Assembly (NCBI GenBank): GCA_949295035.1
Contig: CASFJO010000080.1
Location: 1-61,173, forward strand
Direction of reading: 5' to 3'
From: an uncultured Gemmiger sp.
GTDB taxonomy: Bacteria; Bacillota; Clostridia; Oscillospirales; Ruminococcaceae
DNA: 61,173 bases
Position 1 is the first letter of the stretch, and every line of letters begins with the position of its first letter. The notes under the pieces were generated by a model. The model did no database searches. It was given only the letters and a program-made list of their open reading frames with translations, and was not told where the DNA came from. Below, piece by piece: positions 3,367 to 34,361 of the stretch. Made by a program: the position numbers and the translations under genes.

Positions 3367-3372
3367 AATTAC

Positions 3373-8872: not shown

Positions 8873-8903
8873 TCTTGGCGCCGCCGCACAAGAACTATGG
8901 TTT

Positions 8904-8942: not shown

Positions 8943-9036
8943 GCTGAACCTTTCGGAGCGTTTTGTACAAAATATAAAGATATAATATGGGCAAATCGCT
9001 CGATTTTGTGCGGCAAAACAAATTGCGAAAAAGGAA

Positions 9037-9077: not shown

Positions 9078-9151
9078 CTGTTGGAGAGGAAACAATCAAC
9101 GCCGGGCTGCTTGCAGACCGGCGTTTCCGGACAGGGAGGAAGGCGAACACA

Positions 9152-9583
9152 ATGGAAAAGATTCTCGGGATCCAGCTGATCCGGATCTCCACCATGATCC
9201 GGCGGGAACTGGACAGCCAGGCCGATGCGGAACAGCTGCACAAGGCGACCGGGGGCAACGGCTGGATCCTCAAGTATCTGGCCCGCCATGAGGATCAGGA
9301 CGTGTACCAGAAGGATATCGAGGAGCATTTTTCCATCACCCGGTCCACCGTGTCCAAGGTGGTCAAACTCATGGAGGAAAAAGGGCTGATCCAGCGGCTG
9401 CCGGTGCCGGGAGACGCCCGGCTCAAGAAGCTGGTGCTCACCGAGCAGGGGCGCGCGGTACACCGGATGGCAGACGCCAACATGGTCCGCATGGAGGCCC
9501 GGCTGGCTGAGGGCTTTTCGCCCATGGAACTGGAACAACTTTTTGATTTTCTGCGCCGCCTGCAGGAGAACCTGAAGGAGTGA
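9152..9583 (+). CDS. MarR-family transcriptional regulator
   Basis: A 143-residue winged-helix protein. Residues about 45-100 show the MarR recognition helix and wing (QKDIEEHFSITRSTVSKVV, then LPVPGDARLKKLVLTEQG, where DxRxKxxxLT is the wing signature). It lies behind a promoter with a perfect palindrome over the -10 box and directly upstream of two ABC exporter genes. It most likely represses this operon and releases it when an exported compound binds. The inducer cannot be predicted. Confidence 0.92.
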   Translation: MEKILGIQLIRISTMIRRELDSQADAEQLHKATGGNGWILKYLARHEDQDVYQKDIEEHFSITRSTVSKVVKLMEEKGLIQRLPVPGDARLKKLVLTEQGRAVHRMADANMVRMEARLAEGFSPMELEQLFDFLRRLQENLKE

Positions 9584-9664
9584 TCTCCCTTTGCCGCAAA
9601 CAGTTTCGATCCGTAAGGAGCCGGTCCGGTGCGGCCGGCCTGCACAAAAAGGAGGAATCGACCG

Positions 9665-11410
9665 ATGATCAAAACCCTTGCCGCTTCCATCCGTCAGTAC
9701 AAAAAGGTGTCCTCGCTGGCGATACTTTTTACCGTGCTGGAGGTGGGGCTGGACATTCTGATCCCGCGCCTGATGGCGGACCTGATCGACCAGGGCATCG
9801 AGCCGGGCCGCATGGACGTGGTGATGGGCTACGGCACCGTGCTGCTGGTGAGCGCGGTGCTGGCGCTGACCTTTGGCGCGCTGGGCGGCCGGTATGCCGC
9901 CCGGGCCGCCTGCGGTTTTGCCCGCAACCTGCGCCAGAGTATGTATTATAAAGTACAGGACTTTTCTTTTTCCAACATTGACCGGTTCTCCACGGCCAGC
10001 ATCGTCACCCGCCTGACCACCGACGTGACCAACGTCCAGATGGCCTACCAGATGATTGTGCGGCTGGCCATCCGCTGCCCGGTCATGCTGGTGGTGGCCA
10101 TGATGGTCTCCTTCAGCATCCACCGGGAGCTGTCTCTGATCTTCCTGGGGGCCGCGCCGCTGCTGTTCATCGGGCTGTACATCATCATGCGGCTGACCCA
10201 TCCGGTGTTTGAGCGGGTGTTCCACACCTACGACAAGCTCAACCAGGTGGTGCAGGAGAATTTGCGGGGCATCCGGGTGGTCAAGTCCTTCACCCGCGAG
10301 GACCACGAAAACAAGAAGTTTGACGAGATCTCCCAGAGCATCTACAAGGACTTCTCCAAGGCGGAAAAGACCCTGGCTTTCAACATGCCGCTGATGCAGG
10401 CCGCCATGTACACCTGTACGCTGCTGCTGTGCTGGATGGGCGCAAAGATCATCGTGCTGTCCGGCGGCGCCGAACTCACCACTGGCCTGCTGATGAGCCT
10501 GTTCAACTACGCGCTGCAGATCCTGATGAGCCTGATGGCCCTGTCCATGGTGCTGGTGATGATCACCATCTCCCGGGCCAGTGCCGAGCGTATCGTGGAG
10601 ATCCTCACCGAGGAGAGCGACCTGAAGAACGGCCCCGACCCGGTACATACCGTCAAGGACGGCTCCATCGACTTTGACGACGTGCTGTTTTCCTACGCCC
10701 GCAAGGCCGAGCGCCCGGTGCTGGACCACGTGGACCTGCACATCGCCTCCGGCCAGACGGTGGGCATCCTGGGCGGCATCGGGTCCTCCAAATCCAGCCT
10801 GGTGCAGCTGATCCCCCGGCTGTATGACGTGACCGGCGGCAGCGTCAAGGTAGGCGGCGTGGACGTGCGGGATTACGACCTGGAGGCTCTGCGCAACCAG
10901 GTGGCCATGGTGCTGCAGAAGAACGTGCTGTTTTCCGGCACCATCAAGGAGAACCTGCGCTGGGGCGACGAGCACGCCACCGATGAGCAGATGGTCCATG
11001 CCTGCCAGCTGGCCTGCGCGGACGAGTTTATCCAGCAGATGCCCGACGGCTATGACACCTACATCGAGCAGGGCGGCGCCAACGTCTCCGGCGGCCAGAA
11101 GCAGCGGCTGTGTATCGCCCGCGCCCTGCTGAAAAAGCCCAAGATCCTGATCCTGGACGATTCCACCAGCGCGGTGGATACCGAGACCGACGCCCGCATC
11201 CGCCGGGCCTTTGCCCAGGAGATCCCGGACACCACCAAGATCATCATTGCCCAGCGGGTGTCCTCCATCCAGGACGCCGATCAGATCATTGTGCTGGACG
11301 CGGGCCGGATCGTGGGGCTGGGCAAGCACGACCAGCTGCTGCAGACCTGCGCGATCTATCGGGAAGCCTACGAATCCCAGAACAAGAAGGGAGATGACCA
11401 GAATGGATAA
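9665..11410 (+). CDS. ABC exporter half-transporter, subunit 1 (degenerate ATP site)
   Basis: A 581-residue fusion of an N-terminal six-helix transmembrane domain (about residues 15-310) and a C-terminal ATPase. The Walker A reads GGIGSSKSSL, with serine instead of glycine before the lysine. The signature is a normal VSGGQKQR. The Walker B is ILILDDSTSAVD, with Asp where the catalytic Glu normally stands. Such changes mark the non-catalytic site of heterodimeric multidrug exporters of the BmrCD/LmrCD type. It overlaps the next gene by 8 bp and follows a MarR gene, consistent with inducible drug or peptide export. Confidence 0.92.
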   Translation: MIKTLAASIRQYKKVSSLAILFTVLEVGLDILIPRLMADLIDQGIEPGRMDVVMGYGTVLLVSAVLALTFGALGGRYAARAACGFARNLRQSMYYKVQDFSFSNIDRFSTASIVTRLTTDVTNVQMAYQMIVRLAIRCPVMLVVAMMVSFSIHRELSLIFLGAAPLLFIGLYIIMRLTHPVFERVFHTYDKLNQVVQENLRGIRVVKSFTREDHENKKFDEISQSIYKDFSKAEKTLAFNMPLMQAAMYTCTLLLCWMGAKIIVLSGGAELTTGLLMSLFNYALQILMSLMALSMVLVMITISRASAERIVEILTEESDLKNGPDPVHTVKDGSIDFDDVLFSYARKAERPVLDHVDLHIASGQTVGILGGIGSSKSSLVQLIPRLYDVTGGSVKVGGVDVRDYDLEALRNQVAMVLQKNVLFSGTIKENLRWGDEHATDEQMVHACQLACADEFIQQMPDGYDTYIEQGGANVSGGQKQRLCIARALLKKPKILILDDSTSAVDTETDARIRRAFAQEIPDTTKIIIAQRVSSIQDADQIIVLDAGRIVGLGKHDQLLQTCAIYREAYESQNKKGDDQNG

Positions 11411-13319
11411 GTCCGGAAAGAAACCCCAGGCGCCGGTGATGCGGTTCAAACCCGGCACCATCCGCCGCCTGCTGGGGTATATGTCCCAGTATCGGGTCCG
11501 GCTGATCTTTGTGGTGATCTGCATCCTGGTCAGCGCCTTTTCCAACGCGGCTTCGGCCCTGTTTTTGCAGCGTCTGATCGACGACTACATCTCCCCGCTG
11601 CTGCTGGACAGCGACCCTGTATTCACCGGGCTGGCCAAAGCCATTACCGGCATGGCCTGCCTGTATGTGGCGGGCGTGCTCTGCACCCTGTTCTACAACC
11701 GGCTGATGGCGGTGGTGGCCCAGGGCACCCTCAAGCGCATCCGGGACGAGATGTTCAACCACATGCAGACCCTGCCCATCTCGTATTTTGACACCCACAC
11801 CCACGGCGACGTGATGAGCTACTACACCAACGACACCGACACCCTGCGCCAGATGATCAGCCAGAGTGTGCCGCAGCTGTTTTCCAGCTGTGTCACCCTG
11901 ATCGCGGTGTTCTTCTCGATGTTGTACCTGAGCGTGCCGCTGACCCTCTTTGTGGTGCTGTTTGCGGTGTTCCTGCTGTGGGTGGTGCGGTACATCGCCG
12001 GCCACAGCGGCCGCTACTTTGTGCAGCAGCAGCAGACGCTGGGCGAGGTGAACGGCTACATCGAGGAGATGATCAACGGCCAGAAGGTGGTCAAGGTGTT
12101 CTGCCACGAAGAGAAAGCCCGGGTGGCCTTTGACTTCCACAACGACCGGCTGTGCGAGGCGTCCACCAACGCCAACATGATGGGCAACATCATCATGCCG
12201 GTGGTGGCCAGCCTGGGGTATGTGCTGTATGTGCTGCTGGCGGTGGTCGGCGGCGCGATGGCCATCATCGGGGTGGGCAACATCGGCCTGGCCGGGGTCA
12301 GCACCCTGACCCTGGGCACTATCGCCTCCTTCCTGACCATGTCCCGCAGTTTCGTCAACCCGATCGCCCAGGTCAGCCAGCAGTTCAACAATGTGGTCAT
12401 GGCGCTGGCTGGCGCGTCCCGGATCTTTGAACTCATGGATGAGCCCAGCGAGGAGGACCACGGCTATGTGACCCTGGTCAACGCCCGCTACAACAAGGCC
12501 GGCGAACTGGAAGAGGCCCCGGAACCCACCGGCATGTGGGCCTGGAAACACCCCCACCACGACGGTACCCTGACCTATACCAAACTGCAGGGCAACGTGG
12601 TGTTCGACCACGTGGATTTTGCCTACACCCCCGACAAGCCCATCCTGCATGATATCTGCATGTACGCGGAACCGGGCCAGAAACTGGCCTTCGTGGGGGC
12701 CACCGGCGCGGGCAAGACCACCATTACCAATCTGATCAACCGGTTCTACGACATCGCGGACGGCAAGATCCGGTACGACGGCATCAACATCAACAAGATC
12801 AAAAAGGCCGATCTGCGCCGGAGCCTGGGCGTGGTGCTGCAGGATGTAAACCTGTTCACCGGTACGGTCATGGAAAACATCCGCTACGGCCGTTTGAACG
12901 CCACCGACGAGGAGTGCATCGCCGCCGCCAAGCTGGCCAACGCGGACAGCTTTATCCGTATGCTGCCAAACGGCTACCAGACGGTGCTGGAAGGGGACGG
13001 CAGCGGCCTGTCCCAGGGGCAGCGGCAGCTGCTGAGCATCGCCCGGGCGGCGGTGGCCGACCCGCCGGTCATGATCCTGGACGAGGCCACCAGCAGCATT
13101 GACACCCGCACCGAGGCCATTGTACAGGCGGGCATGGATGCGCTGATGTACGGCCGCACCGTGTTTGTGATCGCCCACCGGCTGTCCACCGTGCAGAACT
13201 CGGATGTGATCATGGTTCTGGAACACGGCCGCATCATCGAGCGGGGCAGCCATGAAAAGCTGATCGCGGAAAAAGGCAAATACTATCAGCTGTATACTGG
13301 CACGTTTGAGCTGGAGTGA
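11403..13319 (+). CDS. ABC exporter half-transporter, subunit 2 (catalytic site)
   Basis: A 638-residue transmembrane-ATPase fusion. The Walker A is canonical (GATGAGKTT), the Walker B ends in the catalytic Glu (MILDEATSSID), and the signature is altered to LSQGQRQ. This is the exact complement of subunit 1: the Walker motifs of subunit 2 would pair with the intact signature of subunit 1 to form one active site. An insert of about 50 residues around residue 360, between the membrane domain and the ATPase, is rich in charged residues and is a known feature of some members. The start codon overlaps the end of the upstream gene. Confidence 0.92.
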   Translation: MDKSGKKPQAPVMRFKPGTIRRLLGYMSQYRVRLIFVVICILVSAFSNAASALFLQRLIDDYISPLLLDSDPVFTGLAKAITGMACLYVAGVLCTLFYNRLMAVVAQGTLKRIRDEMFNHMQTLPISYFDTHTHGDVMSYYTNDTDTLRQMISQSVPQLFSSCVTLIAVFFSMLYLSVPLTLFVVLFAVFLLWVVRYIAGHSGRYFVQQQQTLGEVNGYIEEMINGQKVVKVFCHEEKARVAFDFHNDRLCEASTNANMMGNIIMPVVASLGYVLYVLLAVVGGAMAIIGVGNIGLAGVSTLTLGTIASFLTMSRSFVNPIAQVSQQFNNVVMALAGASRIFELMDEPSEEDHGYVTLVNARYNKAGELEEAPEPTGMWAWKHPHHDGTLTYTKLQGNVVFDHVDFAYTPDKPILHDICMYAEPGQKLAFVGATGAGKTTITNLINRFYDIADGKIRYDGININKIKKADLRRSLGVVLQDVNLFTGTVMENIRYGRLNATDEECIAAAKLANADSFIRMLPNGYQTVLEGDGSGLSQGQRQLLSIARAAVADPPVMILDEATSSIDTRTEAIVQAGMDALMYGRTVFVIAHRLSTVQNSDVIMVLEHGRIIERGSHEKLIAEKGKYYQLYTGTFELE

Positions 13320-24874: not shown

Positions 24875-24950
24875 GGGCGGTTAGCTCAGCTGGTAGAGCA
24901 CCTGCTTGACGTGCAGGGGGTCAGGGATTCGAGTTCCTTACCGCCCACCA
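24875..24950 (+). tRNA. tRNA-Val (anticodon GAC)
   Basis: A 76-nt cloverleaf with encoded CCA. The acceptor stem GGGCGGT pairs with ACCGCCC. The anticodon arm CCTGC-TTGACGT-GCAGG gives anticodon GAC, reading the valine codons GUC and GUU. The T arm AGGGA-TTCGAGT-TCCTT contains one G-T pair. Its 3' part, from 24925, lies inside the attachment-site repeat of the integrative element, so the functional 3' end was probably supplied by the element when it inserted. Confidence 0.95.
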
Positions 24951-24965
24951 AAATGAAAACCCCGG
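24925..24965 (+). repeat. Left attachment site (41-bp direct repeat)
   Basis: Identical to 33279-33319. It begins within the T arm of the tRNA (GGATTCGAG) and ends in the 5' arm of the following terminator (AAAACCCCGG). The crossover took place somewhere within it. Confidence 0.92.
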
Positions 24966-25000
24966 AATGGAGCCGAAAATGGCTTGTTTCCGGGGTTTTT
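24956..25000 (+). terminator. Terminator after tRNA-Val, element-borne copy
   Basis: CCCCGGAA (24960-24967) pairs with TTCCGGGG (24988-24995), followed by TTTTT. The first six stem bases lie in the attachment repeat; the other bases differ from the right-hand copy at 33310-33355 but keep pairing. Confidence 0.85.
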
Positions 25001-25127
25001 CATTGTTTGACGTGTGTTGCGGTGGGTAGCCGTGGGCAGCGGTGGCGGCACAGAAATGGCACAGTAGTGGCACAGGAAAAAACTGGAAATTCGGACACGG
25101 ACCCCGGCGCGGGGCCGGGGCGGTGGG

Positions 25128-25568
25128 TCACTTGCTGGCGGGCTGCTGGCCGCGCGGGTGGGTAATGTAGAGGTCCTCAACGTTGATGGCGTGGACCAGC
25201 AGCTTGTGGAGAAATACGGGGCTGTTCTGGCACCTGCTCATGATGTGCGCGATCGAGATCGCGTCGGGCTGGGTGAACGTAAACACTTTCCCGGAGGGCT
25301 TGCTGCTGTCTCCCTCCTTGTGCAGCAGGCGCTCATACACCACGGCCTGGGTGAGCAGTTCCCGCAGAAATCGCTCGTTGTCGGCGTTCCGGTTGATAAT
25401 GTACACAATCTCGGCGGCGGTGGGATTCGAAAGCACGAAACCGTGCCCTGGCTCCTGCCCACCGGCGGGGATCATGTGCCGAAGAAACGTCAGCACGAGG
25501 CTGCACTCCACCGCGCTGGCGGCTCCCAGGTAGTTCCCGATCTGGTCAATGATGGTCGCTTTGTCCAT
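25128..25568 (-). CDS. Hypothetical protein of the integrative element
   Basis: A 146-residue, mostly helical soluble protein that I do not recognise. The start (MDKATIIDQIGNYLG) is chosen because AGAGAGG precedes it by 10 bases. It has two similar helical blocks, one around residues 60-90 (NPTAAEIVYIINRNADNERFLRELL) shown here as NPTAAEIVYIIN then FLRELLTQAVVYERLL, and one around 110-135 (QPDAISIAHIMS, FLHKLLVHAINVEDL). They look like an internal duplication. It is last in a two-gene unit transcribed leftward from the operator region at 26148-26225, so it may share control with the toxin-antitoxin pair. Confidence 0.65.
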   Translation of the reverse strand: MDKATIIDQIGNYLGAASAVECSLVLTFLRHMIPAGGQEPGHGFVLSNPTAAEIVYIINRNADNERFLRELLTQAVVYERLLHKEGDSSKPSGKVFTFTQPDAISIAHIMSRCQNSPVFLHKLLVHAINVEDLYITHPRGQQPASK

Positions 25569-25690
25569 AGTCTTGTAACCTCTCTTTACAAATTGGCCAG
25601 GGCGGGCTATACTGGGTATAGGACCCGCCCCGGCGGGTGTTGGTGGCTCTTGTATCTGGCTTTGGTCGGCGTTGATACAAGGGCCTTTTC

Positions 25691-25969
25691 TCATGCGGTG
25701 GCGGCGACGGTGAAGCGCTGCACGGTCTGGGGTTTGCAGAAGTCGCTGTACAGGCAGCCATACACGGCCTTGAAAGCCTTGGCGTCAAAGCGGCTGGTGG
25801 TCACGGCCTTGTTGCGGGCGATGTAGCCGCCGCACTCCACTTCCTCCTGGCCGTTCATGCCGGCCTTGATGCGCTCGGCCACGGCCTGCTTGCGGGCCTC
25901 CAGTTCCGCGATCTGGCGGGCCAGGTCGGCGTACTCGGCCAGGTTCTTCTTCATGGTCTTTTGGGTCAT
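25691..25969 (-). CDS. Small coiled-coil protein of the integrative element
   Basis: A 92-residue protein with a heptad-rich helix (YADLARQIAELEARKQAVAE, residues about 12-35) and a C-terminal region ending RFTVAATA. Similar short proteins are common in Firmicute phages and islands next to Gp157-like genes, but no function is known to me. GGAGG lies seven bases before the ATG at 25969. It is transcribed away from the toxin-antitoxin genes, from a divergent promoter that overlaps the first palindromic operator. Confidence 0.7.
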   Translation of the reverse strand: MTQKTMKKNLAEYADLARQIAELEARKQAVAERIKAGMNGQEEVECGGYIARNKAVTTSRFDAKAFKAVYGCLYSDFCKPQTVQRFTVAATA

Positions 25970-26137
25970 TGTTCGTACCTCCATTCTGTTTGTGGGGGAT
26001 AGGGCAGGCACCCCGCCGGGCATCTTCTTGTCTATTGCCGGTTATGCTCACAAGTATATGGCCTGGCGTATCGGGCGCTTTCGGCCGGGGCCGCTTTTAC
26101 GGCTTCTCCCGGGTGCCTTTCCCGTCCCTGTGATTAT

Positions 26138-26166
26138 AGTATAGCACCTTGTACAAGTATATTCAA
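26138..26166 (-). promoter_or_regulatory. Leftward promoter overlapping operator 1
   Basis: On the minus strand, TTGAAT (26166-26161) and TATACT (26143-26138) with a 17-bp spacer. The palindrome CTTGTACAAG (26148-26157) lies between the two boxes. An alternative -10, TATAAT, sits at 26138-26133. It would drive the two leftward genes of the element. Confidence 0.6.
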
Positions 26167-26225
26167 TTAACAAAATGGACAAACTTGTACAAGTATATCT
26201 GTGTATTTTTGTACTTGTACAAGTA
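26148..26225. repeat. Three palindromic operators CTTGTACAAG
   Basis: Perfect copies occur at 26148-26157, 26184-26193 and 26214-26223; the last two extend to ACTTGTACAAGT. Each is followed by AT. Centre spacings are 36 and 30 bp. They lie between two divergent promoters and overlap both, as expected for the binding sites of the ribbon-helix-helix antitoxin encoded next. A degenerate fourth site, CTTGGTACAA, lies at 26242-26251. Confidence 0.85.
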
Positions 26226-26243
26226 TTTATTTTGTGGTATACT
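26215..26243 (+). promoter_or_regulatory. Promoter of the toxin-antitoxin operon
   Basis: TTGTAC (26215-26220) and TATACT (26238-26243) with a 17-bp spacer. The -35 box is part of operator 3, so binding there would block RNA polymerase. Confidence 0.75.
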
Positions 26244-26283
26244 TGGTACAATGGAAAAGGCCGCTTGAATGGAGGTGCAAAAG

Positions 26284-26499
26284 ATGGACGAAGGGAAAGC
26301 AAAGGCCAGCACTGTGGCAAAAAACAGGTACAACGCAAAGGCTTACGATAGTCTCCGTATCGTAGTAAAGAAAGGCCGCAAAGCTGAAATACAGGCCCAC
26401 GCCGAGGCTATGGGCGAAAGTCTCAACGCCTTTGTGGGCCGTGCGATCAACGAGACCATGGAACGGGACAAACAGGGTGAAAGCGAGGCCGGACAATGA
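26284..26499 (+). CDS. Ribbon-helix-helix antitoxin-like protein
   Basis: A 71-residue basic protein. YDSLRIVVKKGRKAEIQAHA followed by AEAMGESLNAFVGRAINETM fits the Arc/MetJ ribbon-helix-helix fold: a short strand (RIVVKKG) then two helices. Such proteins bind palindromic operators as dimers and neutralise a partner toxin. The ATG at 26284 is chosen because GGAGGT lies eight bases upstream; an ATG at 26269 overlaps that site. It overlaps the toxin gene by 4 bp (ATGA), and palindromes lie in its promoter. Confidence 0.85.
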   Translation: MDEGKAKASTVAKNRYNAKAYDSLRIVVKKGRKAEIQAHAEAMGESLNAFVGRAINETMERDKQGESEAGQ

Positions 26500-27056
26500 A
26501 AATCTACACCATCATCGGCGGCGTGAACGGCTGCGGGAAGTCCAGTCTCACCGGCTCCCTCAAGGCCGAACGCACTGACTTGGGCATTATTGTGGACCCG
26601 GACAAGATCACCGCTGAACTTGGCGGGGATGAATACGAGGGCGGCAAGCTGGCGGTAGAGCGCCTGGAACACGCCCTGGCCGATGGGGTCAGCTTCACCC
26701 AGGAAACGACCCTCTCCGGCGGCTACACCCGCAAACTGGCCCGCCGGGCGCGGGAACAGGGGTATTACATCCGCCTGTACTACATCGGCCTGGACACCGT
26801 ACAGGAGAGCCTGCAGCGCATCCAGAACCGTGTCCGCAAAGGCGGCCATGATATTCCCCGGCGGGATGTGGAAAGCCGTTTTGCCCACCGTTTTGCAGAC
26901 GTGGCAAAGGTGCTGCCTTACTGTGATGAAGCCCGCTTTTTTGACAACGACAATGGCTTTGAATTGGTGGCGGAGTACCGCAACGGCGAGATACTGCCCA
27001 TCGGCAACCGCCGCCCCCGGTGGCTTGTGGAGCTAATGGAAGCGATCAAGCCGTAA
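26496..27056 (+). CDS. Zeta-type toxin-like P-loop kinase
   Basis: A 186-residue P-loop NTPase. The Walker A is GGVNGCGKSS (residues 8-17), followed by GIIVDPDKI near residue 33 and FTQETTLSGG near 68, which match the substrate-binding Asp and active-site Glu regions of zeta toxins. RxxxGGHDIP-R (RVRKGGHDIPRRDVESRF near 112-130) gives the lid arginines. Zeta toxins phosphorylate UDP-N-acetylglucosamine and block wall synthesis. Here it is coupled to a ribbon-helix-helix gene rather than an epsilon antitoxin. Members of this branch could have another phosphate acceptor, so the toxin role is likely but unproven. Confidence 0.82.
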   Translation: MKIYTIIGGVNGCGKSSLTGSLKAERTDLGIIVDPDKITAELGGDEYEGGKLAVERLEHALADGVSFTQETTLSGGYTRKLARRAREQGYYIRLYYIGLDTVQESLQRIQNRVRKGGHDIPRRDVESRFAHRFADVAKVLPYCDEARFFDNDNGFELVAEYRNGEILPIGNRRPRWLVELMEAIKP

Positions 27057-27136
27057 AGGGCGAAGCCGCCAGCCCTATGCAGCGCCGGCCAGCGTCGAAC
27101 CGTGCGACAACCGCCAGCCAAAAACACCACGAAAAA

Positions 27137-27162
27137 GCCCCGCCACCCGGCGGGGCTTTTTC
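27137..27162. terminator. Terminator after the toxin gene
   Basis: GCCCCGCC (27137-27144) and GGCGGGGC (27149-27156) with an ACCC loop, T-tract downstream and A-tract upstream, so it can work in both directions. Confidence 0.85.
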
Positions 27163-27829
27163 TGTGTGGCCATGCAGGCCGTGAGAAAATATTCGTAGTG
27201 ACGGCGTGAAGCTCAAAGCCAAGTGGCGGGGAGGCCCCCAGTCAAGTGCCCGGCCACGGCAATGGTAGACCGATGAGTGGAGTTCTTTTTTCCTCTCCTG
27301 GGCACGTGTACCCCCTCCCCCATCAAAAATGGGGGGTGGTGTTTTCGCGCCTTTATCGCGTGGGTTCAAGACATTCCAGATTTTACCGCACGCGCGGGGG
27401 GGGCGTGGCGTTTGGTTGTGTCGCCTTGATAGAAAGCAAAACCGCCCGGCTTGCCTTTATGTAAGCATACCCCCCTTCGCTGGATTTTGGCCCGGAGTTG
27501 GGAAAAAGTTACCCCCGCCGGTATGGAATGGCCCGCCGGGGATGAAATCACCCTGGGGGGCGTGCGTCTGGCGTTGTAAATCCATGCGCCGTGGTCATAG
27601 GCTCAAAACGCACGAAAAATGGTGTTCTTTCGCCAAAAAACGCCTTGGTATTCGCAGATTTTGCGAAGTCAGGCTTTTATTCCTCTATCCGCGCGCAATA
27701 TGATCGCGCGCATGACCCACCCCCTCCCGTGTATTTCCCGGCCGGTTTTTCGTGTGGGAGGCGTGCGGTCTTCCGCCCCGGGTCTAAAATACGACCCGCC
27801 GGGGGGGGGGGAGATGGTTGACGGTGCTC
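27163..27829. other. Non-coding, G-tract-rich stretch of the element
   Basis: About 670 bp without a convincing gene: the open frames are short, overlap on both strands and lack ribosome binding sites. It contains runs of G (an eight-base run near 27400, an 11-base run at 27801-27811) and a hairpin CCCCCAT-CAAAA-ATGGGGG around 27320-27338 followed by TGTTTT. A transfer origin, replication site or regulatory RNA could lie here, but nothing proves it. Confidence 0.45.
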
Positions 27830-28720
27830 TCATTCGTCCAGCAACCCGCACGGCTCCGCAACGTCCAGGTCCAGCAGCTCGGCCAGGTGCTTTGTGTTGG
27901 CAGCCGCCAGCCGGCGCTCTTTTTCCTCCTGCCTCTCCACAAGGCGTTCTTCCACACTGCCCCTGTGTGCCCAGGCACCAAAGCCGGTGCCACGGTAGGC
28001 GTGGGCGGTGCGTATCTCATCCTGATAGGCTCGAAGGTGGCGGGCCTTTCGGCGCAGTGCGGCCAGGGCGGCGTACTCGGTGGCGCGGGCTCTGTCGGTA
28101 CTGCACCCCATACTCTCGGCCAGCTGGCGGAAGCTGTAACCCTGCCAATACACTTTCCGCAGGGTGTCGGCCTGATGGGACGGTATTTGCTCCATGGTGG
28201 CCTCCAGGTCGTTGTGGAGCTGCTGCGTGTAGAGCCGTTCGTCCGTGTCCAAGAGCGCGGCCTCCGCCTCCGGGTCGGGCACCAGCTCGCCCAGGGTGTC
28301 GCCCTCGGCTTCGCCAATGGCCACAGGCTCGTCCAGGCTGGCGGCACGGTTCAGCGGGTCGCCGCGTCCGAGACCCCTGCGCAAACCAACCAGATCTTGA
28401 ACGTGATACCGGGCAATCAACCCCAGCATGGTGGTGAAGGCCCCTCTGGCCGGGTCATACAGGCGCACCGTCTCGCTGATGATGAAATACCCTTCTTGCT
28501 CCACGTCCTCCAGTGTGACGCCGGCGGCCACGGCCTGCTGCTCATACCGGAAGTAGTACCGGCGGCCCAGGACCCACAGAAGCCGCCTATTTTGCGCCCA
28601 CAAAGCCGCCAGGGCGTCCAGGTCTCCACCCTTGGCCTTTTCCGCCAGCGCCTCGTTTGTGCCTGTTTCCGGGGCTGCTGCGGGCTTGTCGTTGTGGTTC
28701 ATGTTGTCCTCTGCTTCCAT
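27830..28720 (-). CDS. Sigma-70-family factor encoded by the element
   Basis: A 296-residue protein. Residues about 30-125 resemble sigma region 2: GVTLEDVEQEGYFIISETVR and LYDPARGAFTTMLGLIARY match the DLVQEG-YDPxRG-FxTY pattern. Residues about 185-245 resemble region 4 with a helix-turn-helix (YSFRQLAESMGCSTDRARA). A charged tail of about 50 residues follows. The ATG has GGGAGG upstream. Sigma-like factors occur in conjugative transposons and some phages, where they direct transcription of late or transfer genes. Its target promoters are unknown; the tandem repeats just upstream are one candidate. Confidence 0.8.
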   Translation of the reverse strand: MEAEDNMNHNDKPAAAPETGTNEALAEKAKGGDLDALAALWAQNRRLLWVLGRRYYFRYEQQAVAAGVTLEDVEQEGYFIISETVRLYDPARGAFTTMLGLIARYHVQDLVGLRRGLGRGDPLNRAASLDEPVAIGEAEGDTLGELVPDPEAEAALLDTDERLYTQQLHNDLEATMEQIPSHQADTLRKVYWQGYSFRQLAESMGCSTDRARATEYAALAALRRKARHLRAYQDEIRTAHAYRGTGFGAWAHRGSVEERLVERQEEKERRLAAANTKHLAELLDLDVAEPCGLLDE

Positions 28721-28813
28721 TGCACTGCCCTCCCGTTCATGGTATACTGGCGATAGGTTGGGGCCGTCCGGGAGGGCGGCTCTTTTTTTTTCGTTTGCGC
28801 TGCTGGCGGGATG

Positions 28814-28998
28814 TATAGGCGGAAATCCTAGGTTTTCCTGGGTTTTTGCGCCTTGATGATATAGGCGAAAAAACTTAAGTTTTTTAGGTTCTATCGCCCT
28901 GGCAATATAGGCAGAAATATCAGGTTCTATCAGGTTCTTTGGCGCTCGGCTATATAGGCGGGAACCGTAGGTTTTCGTAAGTTCTGGCGCTGCGTATG
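28814..28998. repeat. Four tandem 46-47 bp repeats with internal hairpins
   Basis: Units start with an exact TATAGGC at 28814, 28860, 28906 and 28953 (periods 46, 46 and 47). Each continues with A-rich sequence, one or two AGGTT(C/T)T motifs and ends with a CGCC/GCGC motif. In units 1 and 2, GGCG near the start can pair with CGCC near the end. Unit 2 holds a perfect 18-bp palindrome (A6-CTTAAG-T6), and unit 3 a direct repeat TATCAGGTTC. They lie 94-278 bp upstream of the sigma-factor start. Replication iterons, an operator array or a repeated leader RNA are possible. Confidence 0.85.
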
Positions 28999-29016
28999 CC
29001 CCCCAGGGGGGGGGAG

Positions 29017-29060
29017 CCCCGCCAGCAGCTCCGGCAACATACTGGCGGGGGTAGCTTTTT
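29017..29060 (+). terminator. Hairpin beside the tandem repeats
   Basis: CCCCGCCAG (29017-29025) and CTGGCGGGG (29042-29050) form a perfect 9-bp stem with a 16-nt loop, then GTAGCTTTTT. It is oriented against the genes here, which are all on the minus strand, so it may serve an antisense transcript or be part of an origin structure. Confidence 0.45.
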
Positions 29061-29093
29061 CCAACTCTGGCGAGAAATCCCGCAGGGGGGGTG

Positions 29094-29315
29094 CTACCGG
29101 TCCCGACGGTCAGTGTCCACTAGCGCCCGGGCCAGGCTGGTGCGGGTGATGTACCGGCCCACCCCGTGCCCCACAAAAGGGAAAATCCTGGCGGCGGTCT
29201 TGCGGCCTATGCCGGTGTATGCGGCCACGTCCTGGACGTTCAAACATTCCCGATCAGGAAAGGCCGCCAGCACGCTTTCCAGTTGGTCGCGGTAGCCGGG
29301 CAGCTCGCGGGGCAT
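29094..29315 (-). CDS. Small helix-turn-helix protein (excisionase-like)
   Basis: A 73-residue protein. LNVQDVAAYTGIGRKTAARIFPFVG near residues 24-48 has a helix-turn-helix spacing of the HTH_17/MerR type, read here as VQDVAAYTGIGRKTAAR; it is followed by GRYITRTSLARAL, the usual strand-plus-helix end of small excisionase or replication-accessory proteins. Its start overlaps the stop of the upstream gene (TAATG). It probably binds DNA at the element's origin or ends. Confidence 0.7.
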   Translation of the reverse strand: MPRELPGYRDQLESVLAAFPDRECLNVQDVAAYTGIGRKTAARIFPFVGHGVGRYITRTSLARALVDTDRRDR

Positions 29316-29536
29316 TACTGGGCCCCCTTCTGGTCCATGCGGCCTGCGATCTCGCCCAGGGCGTCCGCGATCTGCTCCGAGTTGTCGGCCAGTGCGGAAA
29401 GGGCGCAGGCGTTGCGGGTGCTGTCAAACCATGCACAGTTTGAACTGCACAGGCTGCTCCGGGGCCCGCCGGTCATGGCGTGCGCGATTATAAGCAGCGG
29501 GCAGAAGGTGTCAGGGGAAACAGTTTTCTTTGTCAT
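29315..29536 (-). CDS. Small cysteine-containing protein of the element
   Basis: A 73-residue protein with a C-x(20)-C-x3-C-x10-C pattern (FCPLL, SSLCSSNCAWFD, NACAL) that could hold a zinc ion. Short proteins with the pattern CPLL...C.CAWF....CA are frequent in Clostridial phages and islands, with no known function. GAGGACC lies just before its ATG. It follows the iteron-like array and is coupled to the next HTH gene. Confidence 0.65.
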   Translation of the reverse strand: MTKKTVSPDTFCPLLIIAHAMTGGPRSSLCSSNCAWFDSTRNACALSALADNSEQIADALGEIAGRMDQKGAQ

Positions 29537-29614
29537 GTGGTCCTCCTATATGTAGTTGGTGGGTGAGTTTGTGGACACGATAGCGCGCCCGTGATGGGCC
29601 GCTGCTGGCAGTTC

Positions 29615-29821
29615 ACCGTTGGTTGCTATATGTACCGTTGATACCGTTGCAACCGTTGGTTATCGTTGATAGCACCATCAACGGTTATCAACGATATCAA
29701 CGGTATCAACGGTGAAATTTACAGTTCGCGTGTACGCGCGCGCCCGTTATAAGGGAACCGTTGATGCTGGAATCATGCTTTGCTGTTCGCCACCAACGGT
29801 TAGTCGCAACGAATCAACGGT
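29615..29821. repeat. Iteron-like array of ACCGTTG / CAACGGT
   Basis: Ten exact heptamers: ACCGTTG at 29615, 29634, 29643, 29652 and 29757, and CAACGGT at 29679, 29698, 29707, 29794 and 29815; several variants lie between. Three forward copies are spaced 9 bp apart. The block 29634-29670 and the block 29677-29713 form an imperfect 37-bp inverted repeat around a 6-bp centre. The array lies beside and runs into the 3' end of the RepA-like gene. It has the look of a replication origin or the binding site of a replication initiator. Confidence 0.82.
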
Positions 29822-31090
29822 TGATAGGTAAAAACGGTGCTTTGCGCCGCCTGTGCCGTTGTGTACTCGGCGGTGCGCTATGTGGTCGTACTCAAACAGG
29901 TCATGGTCAAGAGCCTTGATGCGGTTGGTAAGGTCTCGGGCACTGGCCGCCAGGTTTCGCCCCGTCATATCCTGGCCGGCCGCCATCAGCTCCCGCATGG
30001 TGCCCACCCATTCCCCGGTCGGCGTGTCCCGCAGCAGCTCCCGCAGCGTCAGCACAATGGGGGAATCCTCATAGGCACGCTTTGCGGCGTCCTGTTCTAT
30101 GGCGTCGGCGCTGCCCAGGCGCTCCCATCGAAAGCTCTGCTTGTTGAAAGTGAGGATACTATCCTCGGCGTCGAAGTCACGCGCTGAAACAGAAAGCAAG
30201 GTGTTTGCGTCGCCGCGCTTCTCCCGGGTCATAACCATGGCCGTGTCGGCAGCGCCAAACAGGCCGTTGGTGCCAGATATACGGTTGAAGGGATCTCCAT
30301 CGTCCCCCATCTTGCGTAAATGGTGGACCAGAAGGATGCAAACCCGGCTTCGGTCGGCAAATTCCTTGAGGGCCCCGGCGTCCCGGTAGTCTGCGGCGTA
30401 TGCGTTTTCTTTCCCGGATGTGGAGCGGCGCACTTTTTGCAAGGTGTCAATCACGATCAGGCCCAGGCTGGGCTTCTTGGCGAGAAAATCGTCAAGCTGC
30501 TCCAGCAGCCCACCGGCAACATCCTCGGACCGGGTCGAAAAGTAAAAACCCATCGGCGCACGATCTCCTGCCAACACTTTGTTCATACGGTCCTGAAGCC
30601 GGCCCTCTCCGTCCTCCAAGGCCAGGTATAGGCACTCCGCCTTATTGGTCTTGTGCCCGAGAAACGGCCGCCCATCAGCCACGGAAAGACACAGGTCAAG
30701 CACGAACCAACTCTTGCCGTACTTGGGCGGGCTCGCCAGCAGCGCCAGCCCTTGGGGGAGAAAGCCCTCCACAAAGAAACGGGGCGGGGTTATATCCTTG
30801 TCTTGCAGCTCTCGGGCAGAGAATACGGTCAAGGTCAGGTGACGCTCTTGTAGGTATTCCGCCCGGCCGAAAACGTCCACGCCCTGCTGGCGGCCATACC
30901 CGTTTACGATCTGGTCCGCAATCTTCTGGCGGATTCCAAACGATTCCGCCAGGGCAAGGGCGCTTGCAATCGCGGCTTGCTGCTGGGCCTTGTCCGGCAG
31001 CTCTTGCACCTTGGCGGGCAGGCCAGCCGCCAGCAGGGCCTCCGGCGTCTCTATGCCGTTCAGCAGCTCGTTGAAATCATCACTTGTCAA
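29747..31090 (-). CDS. RepA-like RecA-fold ATPase (AAA_25)
   Basis: A 447-residue protein. After about 100 residues comes a RecA-type ATPase: Walker A LASPPKYGKSW near residue 125, LEDGEGRLQDRM near 160, Walker B LGLIVIDTLQKV near 210, VCILLVHHLRKM near 250 and ISGTNGLFGAADTAMVM near 275. This is the hexameric helicase family of plasmid RepA and related proteins of phages and islands. The C-terminal 130 residues include a winged-helix-like region. It would unwind DNA for replication of the excised element. Its first codons overlap the XRE gene, and its 3' end contains copies of the iteron-like heptamer. Confidence 0.85.
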   Translation of the reverse strand: MTSDDFNELLNGIETPEALLAAGLPAKVQELPDKAQQQAAIASALALAESFGIRQKIADQIVNGYGRQQGVDVFGRAEYLQERHLTLTVFSARELQDKDITPPRFFVEGFLPQGLALLASPPKYGKSWFVLDLCLSVADGRPFLGHKTNKAECLYLALEDGEGRLQDRMNKVLAGDRAPMGFYFSTRSEDVAGGLLEQLDDFLAKKPSLGLIVIDTLQKVRRSTSGKENAYAADYRDAGALKEFADRSRVCILLVHHLRKMGDDGDPFNRISGTNGLFGAADTAMVMTREKRGDANTLLSVSARDFDAEDSILTFNKQSFRWERLGSADAIEQDAAKRAYEDSPIVLTLRELLRDTPTGEWVGTMRELMAAGQDMTGRNLAASARDLTNRIKALDHDLFEYDHIAHRRVHNGTGGAKHRFYLSTVDSLRLTVGGEQQSMIPASTVPL

Positions 31091-31290
31091 GGCTGGTTAT
31101 CCTCCATGATCTCGGTCACGTCTACGCCTAGGGCGCGGGCGATTTTCCCAGCTGTTTCGGGCAAAATGCTACGTCCCGAGAGAGCGTTATTAACTGTGGG
31201 ACGAGGCATTTCGGCGCTTGAGCAGATGTCTTGCGCGCCCATGCAAGCCCTGGCCATAGCAATCAATAACTTTTCGCGGTTAAGCTTCAC
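31087..31290 (-). CDS. XRE-family Cro-like regulator
   Basis: A 67-residue helix-turn-helix protein: CSSAEMPRPTVNNALSGRSI contains the HTH turn and LPETAGKIARALGVDVTEIM is the common end of the fold. It overlaps the RepA-like gene by 4 bp and is divergent from the larger XRE gene at 31422. This arrangement is typical of a Cro/CI-type switch that decides between quiet integration and excision/replication. Confidence 0.85.
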   Translation of the reverse strand: MKLNREKLLIAMARACMGAQDICSSAEMPRPTVNNALSGRSILPETAGKIARALGVDVTEIMEDNQP

Positions 31291-31317
31291 GGAATACGCC
31301 CCATTTCAATGCTTGTT

Positions 31318-31373
31318 ATTCTTATGAATCTATTATAAGGGATTCTAATGAATATATCAAGATGCTATTGAAT
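31318..31373. promoter_or_regulatory. Operator cluster between divergent XRE genes
   Basis: Near-palindromic 12-mers ATTCTTATGAAT (31318-31329), ATTCTAATGAAT (31342-31353) and a weaker ATGCTATTGAAT (31362-31373) lie in an AT-rich gap, the first two 24 bp apart (just over two helical turns). They are likely binding sites for one or both XRE proteins. A TTGTTA box (31313-31318) with TATAAG (31334-31339) may be part of a rightward promoter. Confidence 0.6.
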
Positions 31374-31421
31374 ATTTTTTTGGCGCATGTTATCCTAAGT
31401 ATGGAAAGTGAGGATGTGCCT

Positions 31422-31826
31422 ATGGACTACGGGAAAAATCTCAAGATTGCGAGGAGTTGGGCGGAAATCACTCAAGCTGAATTAGCTCAAAAAGCTGGCA
31501 TTGCGGTGATTACCGTGCGACAATATGAATCTGGGAAAAGAAAGCCTAGCGCGAAAAACTGGCGCCTCATCGCGAACGCTCTTCATTTGACGGTGGAGGA
31601 GTTGGACAATGCCGAGGACATGCTTTTGAGAGGAATTGAAGGCATTGGCGAAATCGACCTAGAAGCGGCTAAGTATGCACGTGAGGACAAGCGAGAACTT
31701 TTGCGTCTGTATTCACTACTCAATTACAGGGGCCAACAGGTTGCTATTGACCGCCTACAAGAGCTTACGGAAATATCCAGATACCGCGCGGATTATGTTC
31801 AGAATGACGAATTGACCAAGGAATAA
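31422..31826 (+). CDS. XRE-family repressor
   Basis: A 134-residue protein. Residues 5-62 form a lambda-repressor-like HTH (LKIARSWAEITQAELAQKAG, then ITVRQYESGKRKPSAKNW and IANALHLTVEEL). The rest is a helical C-terminal part without an obvious protease domain. The start is set by GTGAGG eight bases upstream. The gene is clearly more AT-rich than the surrounding genome, suggesting a different origin. It is the likely master repressor of the element. Confidence 0.85.
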   Translation: MDYGKNLKIARSWAEITQAELAQKAGIAVITVRQYESGKRKPSAKNWRLIANALHLTVEELDNAEDMLLRGIEGIGEIDLEAAKYAREDKRELLRLYSLLNYRGQQVAIDRLQELTEISRYRADYVQNDELTKE

Positions 31827-31868
31827 CACCTATCGGAACGGCTGTGAAAATAAAAGGAGCTGACAACA

Positions 31869-32093
31869 ATGCCCAAACGCCCAACGCGAAACACCCTCGA
31901 CCCCCGGCGTCTGCCGGAGCTGCTCACCACGGCGCAGTACGCCGCCATTGCCCAGTGTGCGGAGGCCACTGTGCGCCGCCGCCTGCGGATGGGTGAGCTG
32001 GACGGGTGCAAGGTCGGCTCTCTCTGGCGCGTTCGCCGCCACGAGGTGGAGAAGCTGCTGGGGATTGACCCGTCCGAGAGGATAAACATATAA
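31869..32093 (+). CDS. Excisionase-like HTH protein
   Basis: A 74-residue protein with an HTH_17/excisionase fold: LLTTAQYAAIAQCAEATVRR and RRLRMGELDGCKVGSLWRVR, then HEVEKLLG. AAAGGAGC lies before the ATG. It sits 102 bp before the integrase on the same strand, the usual place for a recombination directionality factor. Confidence 0.85.
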   Translation: MPKRPTRNTLDPRRLPELLTTAQYAAIAQCAEATVRRRLRMGELDGCKVGSLWRVRRHEVEKLLGIDPSERINI

Positions 32094-32195
32094 CCCCGAA
32101 ACGGCAAAAAAGTGCAAGCAAAAAAGACCGCCAACCGAACGGGCTGACGGACGATTTGCGGGATCTCGAGTGAGTTTGGCAAAGGAGGCGTGGGG

Positions 32196-33215
32196 ATGGC
32201 TGAAAAGATGTATAAAAGGCCCGACGGCCTCTATGAGAAGAAGCTGACGATCAACGGCAAACGCGTGGCGTTCCGGGCAAAGAGCACCCGCGAAGTGATG
32301 CGAAAAATCGCCGCGTACCGGGAGAAGGAGGAAAGCGGCCCCACCTTCGAGACGGTGGCGGGCGCGTGGTGGGAGGACAAAGAGCCGCGTCTCTCACCCA
32401 ACACCGTCTCCAATTACAAGCTGGCCATGCGACGGGCCGTGCAGCAGTTCGGCGGCGATCCTGTCAAGGGGCTCACGCCGGTGGCGGTCAAGGCGTATCT
32501 GGAGCGCCTGGCCCGCCGTGGGTACGCCCGCCGGACTGTCAACCAGCACTTTGTTGTGCTCCGGGGTATATGCGCCTTTGCCTGTGAGACCTTCAACGTG
32601 ATGCAGAATCCCGCCGCCCTGGTGAAGCTGCCGGACAAGCTGCCCCAGGCCCGGCGGAAAATGCCCACGCCGGCGCAGATAGAGACGATCAAGGCAATGG
32701 CGGACACCCCGGACGGGCTGCTGCTTAATTTCCTCATGTACTCCGGCTTACGGCTGGGGGAGGCCCTGGCGCTGCGTTGGCGGGATGTAGACCCGCAGGC
32801 GGAGACCATACGGGTGGAAAACGCCCTGTATTATGCCGGCCGCAACCAGGGTCAAATAAAGGCCCCCAAAAGCGACGCAGGCCGCCGTAGCGTGATATAC
32901 CTGAAACGGTTGCAAACGATTCTGGAGCCCCACAGGGGGCCTGCCAGCGCCTTTGTATTTGGCGGTGAGCAGCCCATGAGCAAGAAAGCCTATTACTGCC
33001 TGCTGGACCGCTGCCGCCGGGCCGGCCTGGATGTGACACCCCACCAGCTCCGCCACGCATACGCTACCCTGTTGTTTGAAGCCGGCATACCGGAAAAGAC
33101 CGCCCAGGGCTTGCTTGGTCATGCGCAGATAAGCACCACCATGGACGTGTATGCAGAGCTACGGGAAAAGAAGCTGGCGGAAGCGGCGCGGGCCTTGAAT
33201 GACACCGATTTTTGA
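32196..33215 (+). CDS. Tyrosine-recombinase integrase
   Basis: A 339-residue phage-type integrase. Residues 1-45 are an arm-binding domain, about 50-135 a SAM-like core-binding domain (FETVAGAWW ... LSPNTVSNYKLAM), and 155-335 the catalytic domain. Catalytic residues are visible: Arg in YSGLRLGEALAL, Lys in IKAPKSDAGRR, HQLRH, GH in LLGHAQIS and the Tyr in MDVYAELR. The ATG at 32196 is preferred to the GTG at 32190 because AAAGGAGG ends at 32188. It ends 63 bp before the right attachment repeat. Confidence 0.95.
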   Translation: MAEKMYKRPDGLYEKKLTINGKRVAFRAKSTREVMRKIAAYREKEESGPTFETVAGAWWEDKEPRLSPNTVSNYKLAMRRAVQQFGGDPVKGLTPVAVKAYLERLARRGYARRTVNQHFVVLRGICAFACETFNVMQNPAALVKLPDKLPQARRKMPTPAQIETIKAMADTPDGLLLNFLMYSGLRLGEALALRWRDVDPQAETIRVENALYYAGRNQGQIKAPKSDAGRRSVIYLKRLQTILEPHRGPASAFVFGGEQPMSKKAYYCLLDRCRRAGLDVTPHQLRHAYATLLFEAGIPEKTAQGLLGHAQISTTMDVYAELREKKLAEAARALNDTDF

Positions 33216-33278
33216 CAGCGAAAAGCACAGTAAAAGCACAGTGATGCTTACAAATGGCTATATAGAGCGATTTTGTAA

Positions 33279-33319
33279 GGATTCGAGTTCCTTACCGCCC
33301 ACCAAAATGAAAACCCCGG
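33279..33319 (+). repeat. Right attachment site (41-bp direct repeat)
   Basis: An identical copy of 24925-24965. It holds the displaced 3' end of the original tRNA-Val gene, including its CCA, and the first bases of the original terminator. Confidence 0.92.
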
Positions 33320-33355: not shown

Positions 33356-33381
33356 CTTGCCCGCCGCCGGGAGCCGGTTTG

Positions 33382-33424
33382 TGTGATAGGGTCACATACG
33401 CAAGCCGGCCATGTTTGCTATACT
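33382..33424 (+). promoter_or_regulatory. Crp/Fnr-type operator and promoter of the ferredoxin operon
   Basis: A perfect palindrome TGTGA-TAGGG-TCACA lies at 33382-33396. A TATACT -10 box lies at 33419-33424 without a good -35. With transcription starting near 33431 the palindrome is centred at about -42, the position of an activator that contacts RNA polymerase at class II sites. A Crp/Fnr-family regulator is the likely binder. Confidence 0.65.
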
Positions 33425-33480
33425 CACAACGATATAGCCGGAATACAGGCTATGGCGAGGAAAAGGAGGAGACGGACAGG

Positions 33481-33690
33481 ATGAATCGTTCCAAACGGTA
33501 TGCCCGCCCGGACGGCGGCCGCTGCGTGGCCTGCGGGGCGTGCGTGAAGGAATGCCCCCGCGGCGCGGTGCGGGTGGATCGGGGCTGCGAGGCGCTGGTG
33601 GACCCGGAACTCTGCGTGGGCTGTGGCCGGTGTGCCCGCGTGTGCCCGGCCGATTGCATTTCTCTGGTGGCGCGGGAGGTGGCAGAATGA
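33481..33690 (+). CDS. Small 2x[4Fe-4S] ferredoxin
   Basis: A 69-residue protein with two classical cluster motifs, CVACGACVKECP (residues about 16-27) and CVGCGRCARVCP (about 46-57). It would carry electrons in the cytoplasm. AAAAGGAGG precedes the ATG. Its stop overlaps the start of the next gene, a polytopic membrane protein with cysteine motifs, so the pair probably forms one redox module resembling NapG/NapH. A Crp/Fnr-like site upstream suggests control by oxygen, redox or a small ligand. Confidence 0.88.
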   Translation: MNRSKRYARPDGGRCVACGACVKECPRGAVRVDRGCEALVDPELCVGCGRCARVCPADCISLVAREVAE

Positions 33691-34361
33691 AAACAAAGCA
33701 CTGGTATGATTTTCTCTGGTTGTGGTCGATCCTGTTTTTCGGGCTGGGCTTTTTCAACATTCTGTTTGCCTGGCTGGGGATGATCGATTTCTTTTTGCCG
33801 CTGGTGTTTGCGCTGGTGGGCGGCAACAAATTCTTTTGCAACAATCTGTGCGGGCGCGGCCAGTTGTTTTCGCTGCTGGGCGGGCGGCTGAAATGTTCCC
33901 GGGGGAAAAGTGCCCCCCGCTGGCTGGTATCCCGCTGGTTCCGCTATGGGTTCCTGGTTTTTTTCCTGGCGATGTTTGCCAATATGCTGTTTCAGACCTG
34001 GCTGGTGGCGGCGGGGGCCGCTTCGCTGCGGGAGGCGATCAAACTGTTCTGGACCTTCCGGGTGCCCTGGGGATGGACCTATACCGCCGGTACGGTGCCG
34101 GACTGGGTGGCGCAGTTCAGCTTCGGCTTTTACAGCCTGATGCTCACCTCGCTGCTGATCGGGCTGATCGTGATGCTGCTGTATCGGCCCCGCACCTGGT
34201 GCGCGTTCTGCCCCATGGGCACCATGACCCAAGGGATATGCCGGCTGCGCCGCAGGGGCGGCAAGGAGGCATGGCCGGGGCAAACACCCTGGGTTCCTTT
34301 TGCGTTTGTTGAGAAAAAATTTCCCGCGCGCGCAATAATCCCGACGTACCGGGCGTATTGA
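33687..34361 (+). CDS. NapH/YccM-like membrane redox protein
   Basis: A 224-residue protein with about four membrane helices. Cysteines in FFCNNLCGRGQLF near residue 50 and CAFCPMGTMTQ near 172 match the half-cluster motifs of the NapH/CcoG/YccM polyferredoxin group. The usual soluble C-terminal ferredoxin domain is absent; instead the small ferredoxin is encoded by the overlapping upstream gene. The final 25 residues (after WPGQTPWVPF) are unlike the family and may reflect a changed C-terminus. The electron donor and acceptor are unknown. Confidence 0.78.
   Translation: MKTKHWYDFLWLWSILFFGLGFFNILFAWLGMIDFFLPLVFALVGGNKFFCNNLCGRGQLFSLLGGRLKCSRGKSAPRWLVSRWFRYGFLVFFLAMFANMLFQTWLVAAGAASLREAIKLFWTFRVPWGWTYTAGTVPDWVAQFSFGFYSLMLTSLLIGLIVMLLYRPRTWCAFCPMGTMTQGICRLRRRGGKEAWPGQTPWVPFAFVEKKFPARAIIPTYRAY

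Follow-up and report, generated by a model that had tools for sequence, protein, structure and literature searches.

A predicted cos-packaged phage satellite with its own sigma factor at a tRNA-Val gene of an uncultured Gemmiger sp.

The window analyzed here, the whole of a 61,173-nt stretch from an uncultured Gemmiger sp. (contig CASFJO010000080.1), carries an integrated element of about 8.4 kb at a tRNA-Val gene, and this element is very probably a phage satellite that is packaged through a cos (cohesive-end) site. The initial annotation had listed an integrase, an excisionase, a divergent XRE switch, a RepA-like ATPase, a repeat array and a sigma factor. All of them were found, the excisionase as an excisionase-like protein. 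The annotation had also suggested a satellite that exploits a helper phage or a conjugative element. The helper-phage part is now positively supported, because the element holds a phage cos site and does not merely lack genes, whereas the conjugative part gained no support (the origin of transfer, oriT, was not searched for). In the mechanism proposed, infection by or induction of a helper phage would relieve the repressor, and the integrase and the excisionase would release the satellite as a circle. RepA and the repeats would replicate this circle, and the helper terminase would recognize the cos site and package the satellite DNA into helper particles. In addition, the sigma factor may direct late transcription to the benefit of the satellite.

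The cos site was obtained as a conserved motif by comparing the non-coding DNA of otherwise divergent elements. Two copies were located in the window element:
29043..29067, + strand: cos site, intact copy; an exact match to the pattern, forward being the terS direction
27495..27520, − strand: second cos-like copy, in the opposite orientation and with one extra base in the core; located by alignment with the relative L151, where the copy is intact

The 24-bp non-coding motif, written as the pattern GAGTTGGAAARRGNKNCCCNCGCC, occurred eight times in 396 host-family genomes, and the backwards control gave 0 occurrences. All eight were situated 0.08–3.3 kb from a sigma gene of this element family, and no match was obtained in 100 shuffles of the element. 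Only one IMG/VR contig matched the pattern exactly, namely the phage L171 (loci and genomes of the comparison are given as L and G numbers). In this phage, the motif was directly upstream of TerS, followed by the TerL, portal, protease and major head genes, and an HNH-like open reading frame (ORF; 358-798, HNH label by manual reading) was on its other side. Furthermore, 80 phage loci with a related TerL were retrieved. Among the 41 phage contigs beginning 380–1100 nt upstream of TerL, 27 had their first base precisely 6 nt ahead of the motif's TCC; at least two pairs of these 27 (L229/L230 and L243/L244) look like near-copies. The motif was identified as a phage cos site because contig starts at one base are expected of linear virion DNA with cohesive ends. 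In the phages and most of the satellites, the site consisted of three blocks, a C-run, the core and a G-run, and the core was conserved where its surroundings diverged. A matrix was built from the sites of 26 phage loci, selected among the 80 by a core match within 6 edits, and the site of L171 itself was included. It gave 37.0 bits at 29042-29073 of the window, compared with a best score of 15.0 bits in the 49 kb of flanking chromosome and of 16.7 bits in 100 mononucleotide shuffles of the element. A cos site of 36.8 bits was also found on a binned phage contig of a same-order genome, whose TerL was 89% identical to that of L171. By its sequence, the element carries a phage packaging signal, as satellites do, and a helper cos site, as do the cos-type Staphylococcus aureus pathogenicity islands (SaPIs). 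A sigma-dependent promoter was also considered for the motif and rejected, since the motif lies downstream of the tail gene in L093 and upstream of terS in phages, and phage contigs end inside it.

Among the ORFs of the element that were scanned (Pfam, PHROGs and NCBIfam; Pfam alone for the XRE genes, and the other two alone for the integrase and the excisionase), none matched a relaxase, terminase or capsid gene. This was in agreement with the initial annotation and with the definition of satellites as elements without virion genes. A packaging-type match of 25691-26023 to a portal family had an E value of 0.054 and was taken as chance. The annotation had regarded capsid or relaxase genes in homologues as a sign of loss by deletion in the window element. 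None were matched: 39 proteins of relatives gave no terminase, portal or major head family in PHROGs, and the relaxases were checked by Pfam in ten. A near-identity search for the window element in phage records gave no match. The presence of integration and replication genes and the absence of transfer genes would also suit a mobilizable or conjugation-dependent element using a helper relaxase in trans. Integrative mobilizable elements are expected to carry a relaxase or an oriT; no relaxase was matched here, oriT lying outside the search, and the phage cos site points to packaging. Such an element is hardly credible as an explanation.

The boundaries of the element were given by perfect 41-bp direct repeats, 8354 bp apart from start to start, and this pair was the only exact repeat of at least 25 bp within the window:
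24925..24965: attachment (att) repeat, left copy, 41 bp
33279..33319: att repeat, right copy, 41 bp
24875..24950, + strand: tRNA-Val (gac), the integration target, by ARAGORN and Rfam RF00005

The left att copy overlapped the 3′ part of the tRNA gene, as had been annotated for an 8.35-kb element between 41-bp repeats. Like satellites in general, the element is integrated between att repeats and has its own integrase. In the congener G008, the locus was empty, with tRNA-Val between matching neighbours (P5 and proC genes; lipoprotein and 313-aa genes) that were 86–95% identical to those of the window. This supplied the empty site by which the annotation had proposed to check mobility, and the alternative locations proposed with it were provided by relatives at other tRNA genes. 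In G127, a member of the genus group of the window genome, a 7.1-kb relative occupied the same tRNA-Val site, and in a third congener, G202 (75% complete), the search for the locus gave no match. Six loci with integrases 74–87% identical shared the att core beside the gene, and ARAGORN found a tRNA-Val in three of the relatives with such integrases. Phage-inducible chromosomal islands (PICIs) are described as having a unique and specific attachment site in the available portion of PMC6092414, and the counterpart here was the tRNA-Val 3′ end with the core present in six loci. Immediately right of the element, a ferredoxin-like gene and a membrane gene (33379-34361) were observed, neither of which was detected at this site in G008 or in G127.

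Relatives of the sigma factor were detected in 22 of 197 same-family genomes (E ≤ 1e-10) and relatives of the integrase in 11 of the 197 (E ≤ 1e-60), the window genome being included in both counts. Four of the integrases were 77–100% identical to that of the window, and the rest 39–43%. The named genomes gave 17 integrase loci, including records of Gemmiger, Fournierella, Pygmaiobacter, Ruthenibacterium and Bittarella, and the integration genes of the relatives were tRNA-Val, -Gly, -Leu, -Lys, -Met, -Thr, -Arg and -SeC. Eighteen elements with integrase and sigma gene could be delimited, the window element included (17 by direct repeats and one as a circle), and their sizes were about 7.2–13.5 kb. 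The circle, L152 (G273 contig 46, 1-8162), had an 87-bp terminal overlap, an apparent length of 8075 bp and one tRNA-like att core, read by eye. It fits an excised form, and a tandem array would look alike. Outside the 18 were L102 and L159 (sigma or integrase unlabelled by BLAST), L154 (a duplicate of L093), L061, L064, L151, L155 and L169 (no closed att pair), and other sigma loci without a closed pair, e.g., L065, L066, L157, L161, L165-L167 and L170. The sigma gene of L159 was found by profile, and this locus had a weaker cos-like site of 18.9 bits. The profile built from the sigma alignment also picked up housekeeping sigma factors (in 303 of 396 genomes and in 157 of 295), and its tallies were therefore unused; for its rows above 100 bits, the surroundings were inspected in 29 of 42 cases (own genome included) and in 2 of 15 (own genome not counted).

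A decayed prophage, which lost its structural genes and kept its cos, might also present a phage-like integrase, switch, replication gene and cos, and the zeta gene of the element occurs also on IMG/VR contigs with a phage-like gene order. However, the family is compact, with relatives of similar size in several genera, and these are located at several kinds of tRNA gene. Moreover, the replication genes vary while the integrase, switch and sigma gene stay, and the cos core is conserved and its surroundings are not. For these reasons, decay from a prophage was considered very improbable.

The variation of the replication genes was considerable: an AAA_25 RepA in the window element, and in relatives DUF3987, DUF6291, DnaC-, DnaB- and DnaD-like genes, and a replication-initiation protein in L158 (phrog_3584). 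Five of the 18 delimited elements had no gene labelled as a replication gene. In L060, repA was labelled by manual reading (the window RepA gave no match at 1e-4), and the repA label of L152 was a 25% BLAST match to L060. L151, which was not delimited, had RecE- and RecT-like genes. An integrative plasmid-like element that captured cos by accident and is not packaged in nature would be consistent with a RepA with repeats, with the circular relative, and with the lack of this cos type in 13 of the 18 delimited elements. Against this, the cos type, at more than 25 bits, recurred in nine distinct elements, including L061, L064, L151 and L155 from outside the 18. Their replication genes differed, with AAA_25 in the window element, phrog_3584 in L158, and DUF6291 in six others, some of which had DnaB/DnaC-like genes as well. 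A phage tail gene was also present in L061, L062 and L093, which belong to the nine. The plasmid-like explanation is quite improbable. The nine cos-bearing elements are less independent than their number, because six share the DUF6291 gene; this gene may mark one sub-lineage or a helper preference.

Several results weigh against a satellite packaged through cos. The two cos copies of the window element are opposed and 1.5 kb apart, and the second scored 12.3 bits, below the chromosome control of 15.0. Only 5 of the 18 delimited elements had a cos site above 25 bits, L158 barely so (25.8), and the other 13 would have to be packaged by a different route or through a different type of cos. An L171-like terminase was not found in 148 family genomes (E ≤ 1e-60), nor in the window genome in a search of 18 chosen genomes (E ≤ 1e-20; one match, 24% identical), and it was present in just 1 of 127 order-level genomes. 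None of 46 further viral loci (L107-L150, L056 and L057; some of them tape-measure relatives) scored above 17 bits, and many of these may omit the terminase region. The ends of 9 of the 11 sigma-bearing IMG/VR loci were inspected, several of which ended at the flank limit, and none was at cos. Furthermore, the isolate phage GBSV1, with a similar block plan between its annotated HNH and terS, scored 10.8 bits, and the phiRgIBDN1 record does not begin with the cos motif. Induction, replication and transfer are predictions from the sequence, and so is the late role of the sigma factor.

Some of the relatives carried a tail gene. Tape measures were assigned by PHROGs in L061 (735 aa), L062 (640 aa), L168 (546 aa) and L169 (655 aa), the label resting for L061 and L062 on PHROGs, as Pfam gave no such match. 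L093 possessed a 562-aa tail protein, 36% identical to the tail protein of L171 that follows Dit, and it was named baseplate-type because of this position of its counterpart. The tape measure of L061 was 47% identical to the 800-aa one of L171. Accordingly, tail genes were counted in three of the 18 delimited elements (L062, L093 and L168) and in three of the nine cos-type elements (L061, L062 and L093). The tail gene was single in the sense that no second structural gene appeared among the scanned ORFs, the small ORFs of the relatives being mostly unscanned. A 157-aa protein of L156, with weak coiled-coil-like matches to tail families (best 5e-5), was not counted. In the window element, no tail gene or tape measure was found, and a role of this element as a tail hijacker was rejected.

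The ArpU-like regulators of satellites matched phrog_36, as did proteins upstream of cos in the phages L171 and L174, which suggests that late-gene control is shared with the helper. No ArpU-like regulator gene was found in the window element, and its sigma factor matched phrog_36 weakly (0.0066). The labels TMP, ArpU, hyp110 and hth73b are informal names. In the relatives that encode a tape measure or another tail protein, this protein is probably built into the tail of the helper. A wider scheme is conceivable, with rather less than even confidence: a gut Gram-positive satellite lineage would take control of its helper at two late stages. Its sigma factor would redirect late transcription, and an exchangeable slot close to the sigma gene would provide a gene for a tape measure or a baseplate-type protein, giving chimeric, shorter or retargeted tails on helper particles that contain the cos DNA of the satellite. 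The window member would then use the sigma factor and cos alone.

The best-known phage satellites are those of staphylococci, enteric bacteria and vibrios. The class is already known, and what is new here is the lineage, the host group, the sigma factor and the tail slot; in the literature searched, this Gram-positive gut satellite family with its sigma factor was not found. The comparisons below refer to the available portions of the cited reports. The cos-type SaPIs (SaPIbov4 and SaPIbov5) are likewise small islands with a conserved helper cos and are helper-packaged (PMC5052747), packaging being a prediction from the sequence in our case. Unlike these, the window element had no ccm or other capsid homologue (none matched), possessed a sigma factor and belonged to another host order, and some of its relatives had tail genes. 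PLE11, one of the PLE satellites of the Vibrio cholerae phage ICP1, builds chimeric tails that contain a tape measure and a baseplate hub of its own (PMC12987554). Satellite tape measures were published in 2026 for the Vibrio PLEs, and putative ones occur in capsid-forming PICIs (cf-PICIs) too (PMC12987554). Some relatives here resembled the PLEs, by description, in bearing a tape measure or other tail protein (PMC12987554), whereas the window element had no tail gene and so no tape measure of its own, and a cos-type helper and a Gram-positive host were further differences. The phage-inducible chromosomal minimalist islands (PICMI) of Vibrionaceae similarly have a minimal excision and replication set and no capsid remodelling genes, but they integrate next to fis, and no sigma factor is mentioned in the available portion (PMC10803314). 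The StCI satellites of Streptococcus thermophilus were comparable as att-bounded elements of 7–20 kb, and in StCI-301 two putative cos sites differ by one mismatch from the site of a phage (PMC13376191). They differed in host and genes, and the available text of PMC13376191 does not contain the words "tail" and "tape measure". In addition, particles of Gemmiger and Faecalibacterium contained packaged fragments of 8.4–8.9 kb, attributed to gene-transfer-agent-like chromosomal packaging (PMC12946183). The size match of the window element to these fragments is a coincidence and not evidence.

With this family, satellites would extend to gut bacteria of the Oscillospirales type (records of Gemmiger, Pygmaiobacter, Ruthenibacterium and Bittarella). 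The cos site of the family is defined, a group of potential helpers can be recognized, and the parts are open to testing. Should the tail genes of the relatives function as the tape measure of the PLEs does, Gram-positive satellites would have acquired tail hijacking independently. Commandeering helper transcription by means of a sigma factor carried on the satellite would, if true, be unusual. Moreover, elements of this kind and their helpers can be looked for simply by the cos sequence.

The genes and the other features of the window element were as follows:
32190..33215, + strand: tyrosine integrase (phrog_1, 1.3e-68)
31869..32093, + strand: excisionase-like helix-turn-helix (HTH) protein (phrog_1840, 9.9e-7; TIGR01764, 25.9 bits, under the cut-off of 28.8)
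31422..31826, + strand: XRE repressor, cI-like (HTH_3, 3.5e-12; scanned as 31362-31826)
31087..31290, − strand: divergent small XRE protein, cro-like (HTH_3, 5.2e-5; homologues in relatives)
29747..31090, − strand: RepA-like AAA_25 ATPase, probable replication protein (Pfam AAA_25, 9.8e-28; phage helicase/primase PHROGs)
29615..29825: twelve ATCAACGGT-like 9-mers in an array beside repA, two of which overlap; candidate origin
29315..29536, − strand: small uncharacterised protein (homologues in two relatives)
29094..29315, − strand: small HTH_17-like protein (under the Pfam cut-off; 69–84% DNA identity in four relatives)
28809..28990: four repeats of a 43-nt unit (60–77% alike; spacing 46–47 bp)
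27830..28720, − strand: private sigma-70 factor (TIGR02937; SigA structures; C-terminal extension common to several relatives in the alignment)
27057..27829: stretch without a called gene (mechanical ORFs exist), holding the second cos-like copy
26496..27056, + strand: zeta-toxin-like kinase, cargo (PF06414, 1.6e-8; 34.7 bits vs cut-off 22.3; also on IMG/VR contigs)
26269..26499, + strand: small protein, weakly Arc/HicB-like (phrog_13890, function unassigned, 4e-18)
25691..26023, − strand: small family protein, similar to the C-terminal portion of RecE-like nucleases (phrog_434, 6.9e-14; 12-member alignment)
25128..25694, − strand: uncharacterised protein (called start 25568)

The sigma factor exceeded the TIGR02937 cut-off (52.2 vs 42.9 bits), and Pfam regions 2 and 4 were matched just under their cut-offs. 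A profile of ten sigma family members matched SigA structures over positions 16–225. For the window RepA, no sequence match was obtained among solved structures. The ATCAACGGT-like 9-mers numbered 23 in the window compared with 9.3 expected, and 12 of the 23 were inside 29615-29825. Part of this array (29620-29730) formed a strong hairpin with a fold z of −6.3. A conserved organisation of the replication origin is a PICI feature in the available portion of PMC6092414, alongside genes exclusive to PICIs, induction that depends on a phage, interference with phages and packaging into particles. Here the array adjoined repA, and the replication genes of the relatives differed, with none labelled in the five elements noted above. 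Units similar to the 43-nt type were present in one (L062) of 14 other loci tested. The stretch at 27057..27829 was 89% identical to L151 across a 750-bp alignment.

A toxin–antitoxin pair had also been annotated. The toxin half was upheld by the zeta-like gene, which was above the Pfam cut-off, and its small neighbour was mainly a phrog_13890 protein with a weak likeness to Arc/HicB. A proven pair was rejected, as either gene can occur alone in relatives. The neighbour, which lies downstream of two exact copies and one near copy of CTTGTACAAGTATAT, is probably a DNA-binding regulator. The palindrome CTTGTACAAG was observed three times at 26148-26228, upstream of the small regulator-like gene, and two copies were present in the relative L093 as well. 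On the IMG/VR contigs L265-L268, a zeta-like gene 62–81% identical was placed beside or near repressor- or integrase-like genes, and the conservation of this gene was unusually high compared with other satellite genes.

The window genome (G000) contained two more RepA-type genes, at C87:13549-14253 (45%) and C23:34126-34932 (42%), each near integrase-like genes, and these perhaps mark other elements. An unannotated human faecal phage record, L056 (MT836902.1, 8313 bp), was of satellite-like size and gave RepA-type and integrase-like matches and no cos above 17 bits. Finally, on the 20-kb viral contig of L119, a 2782-aa ORF (3131-11479) was observed beside an integrase 58% identical to that of the window.

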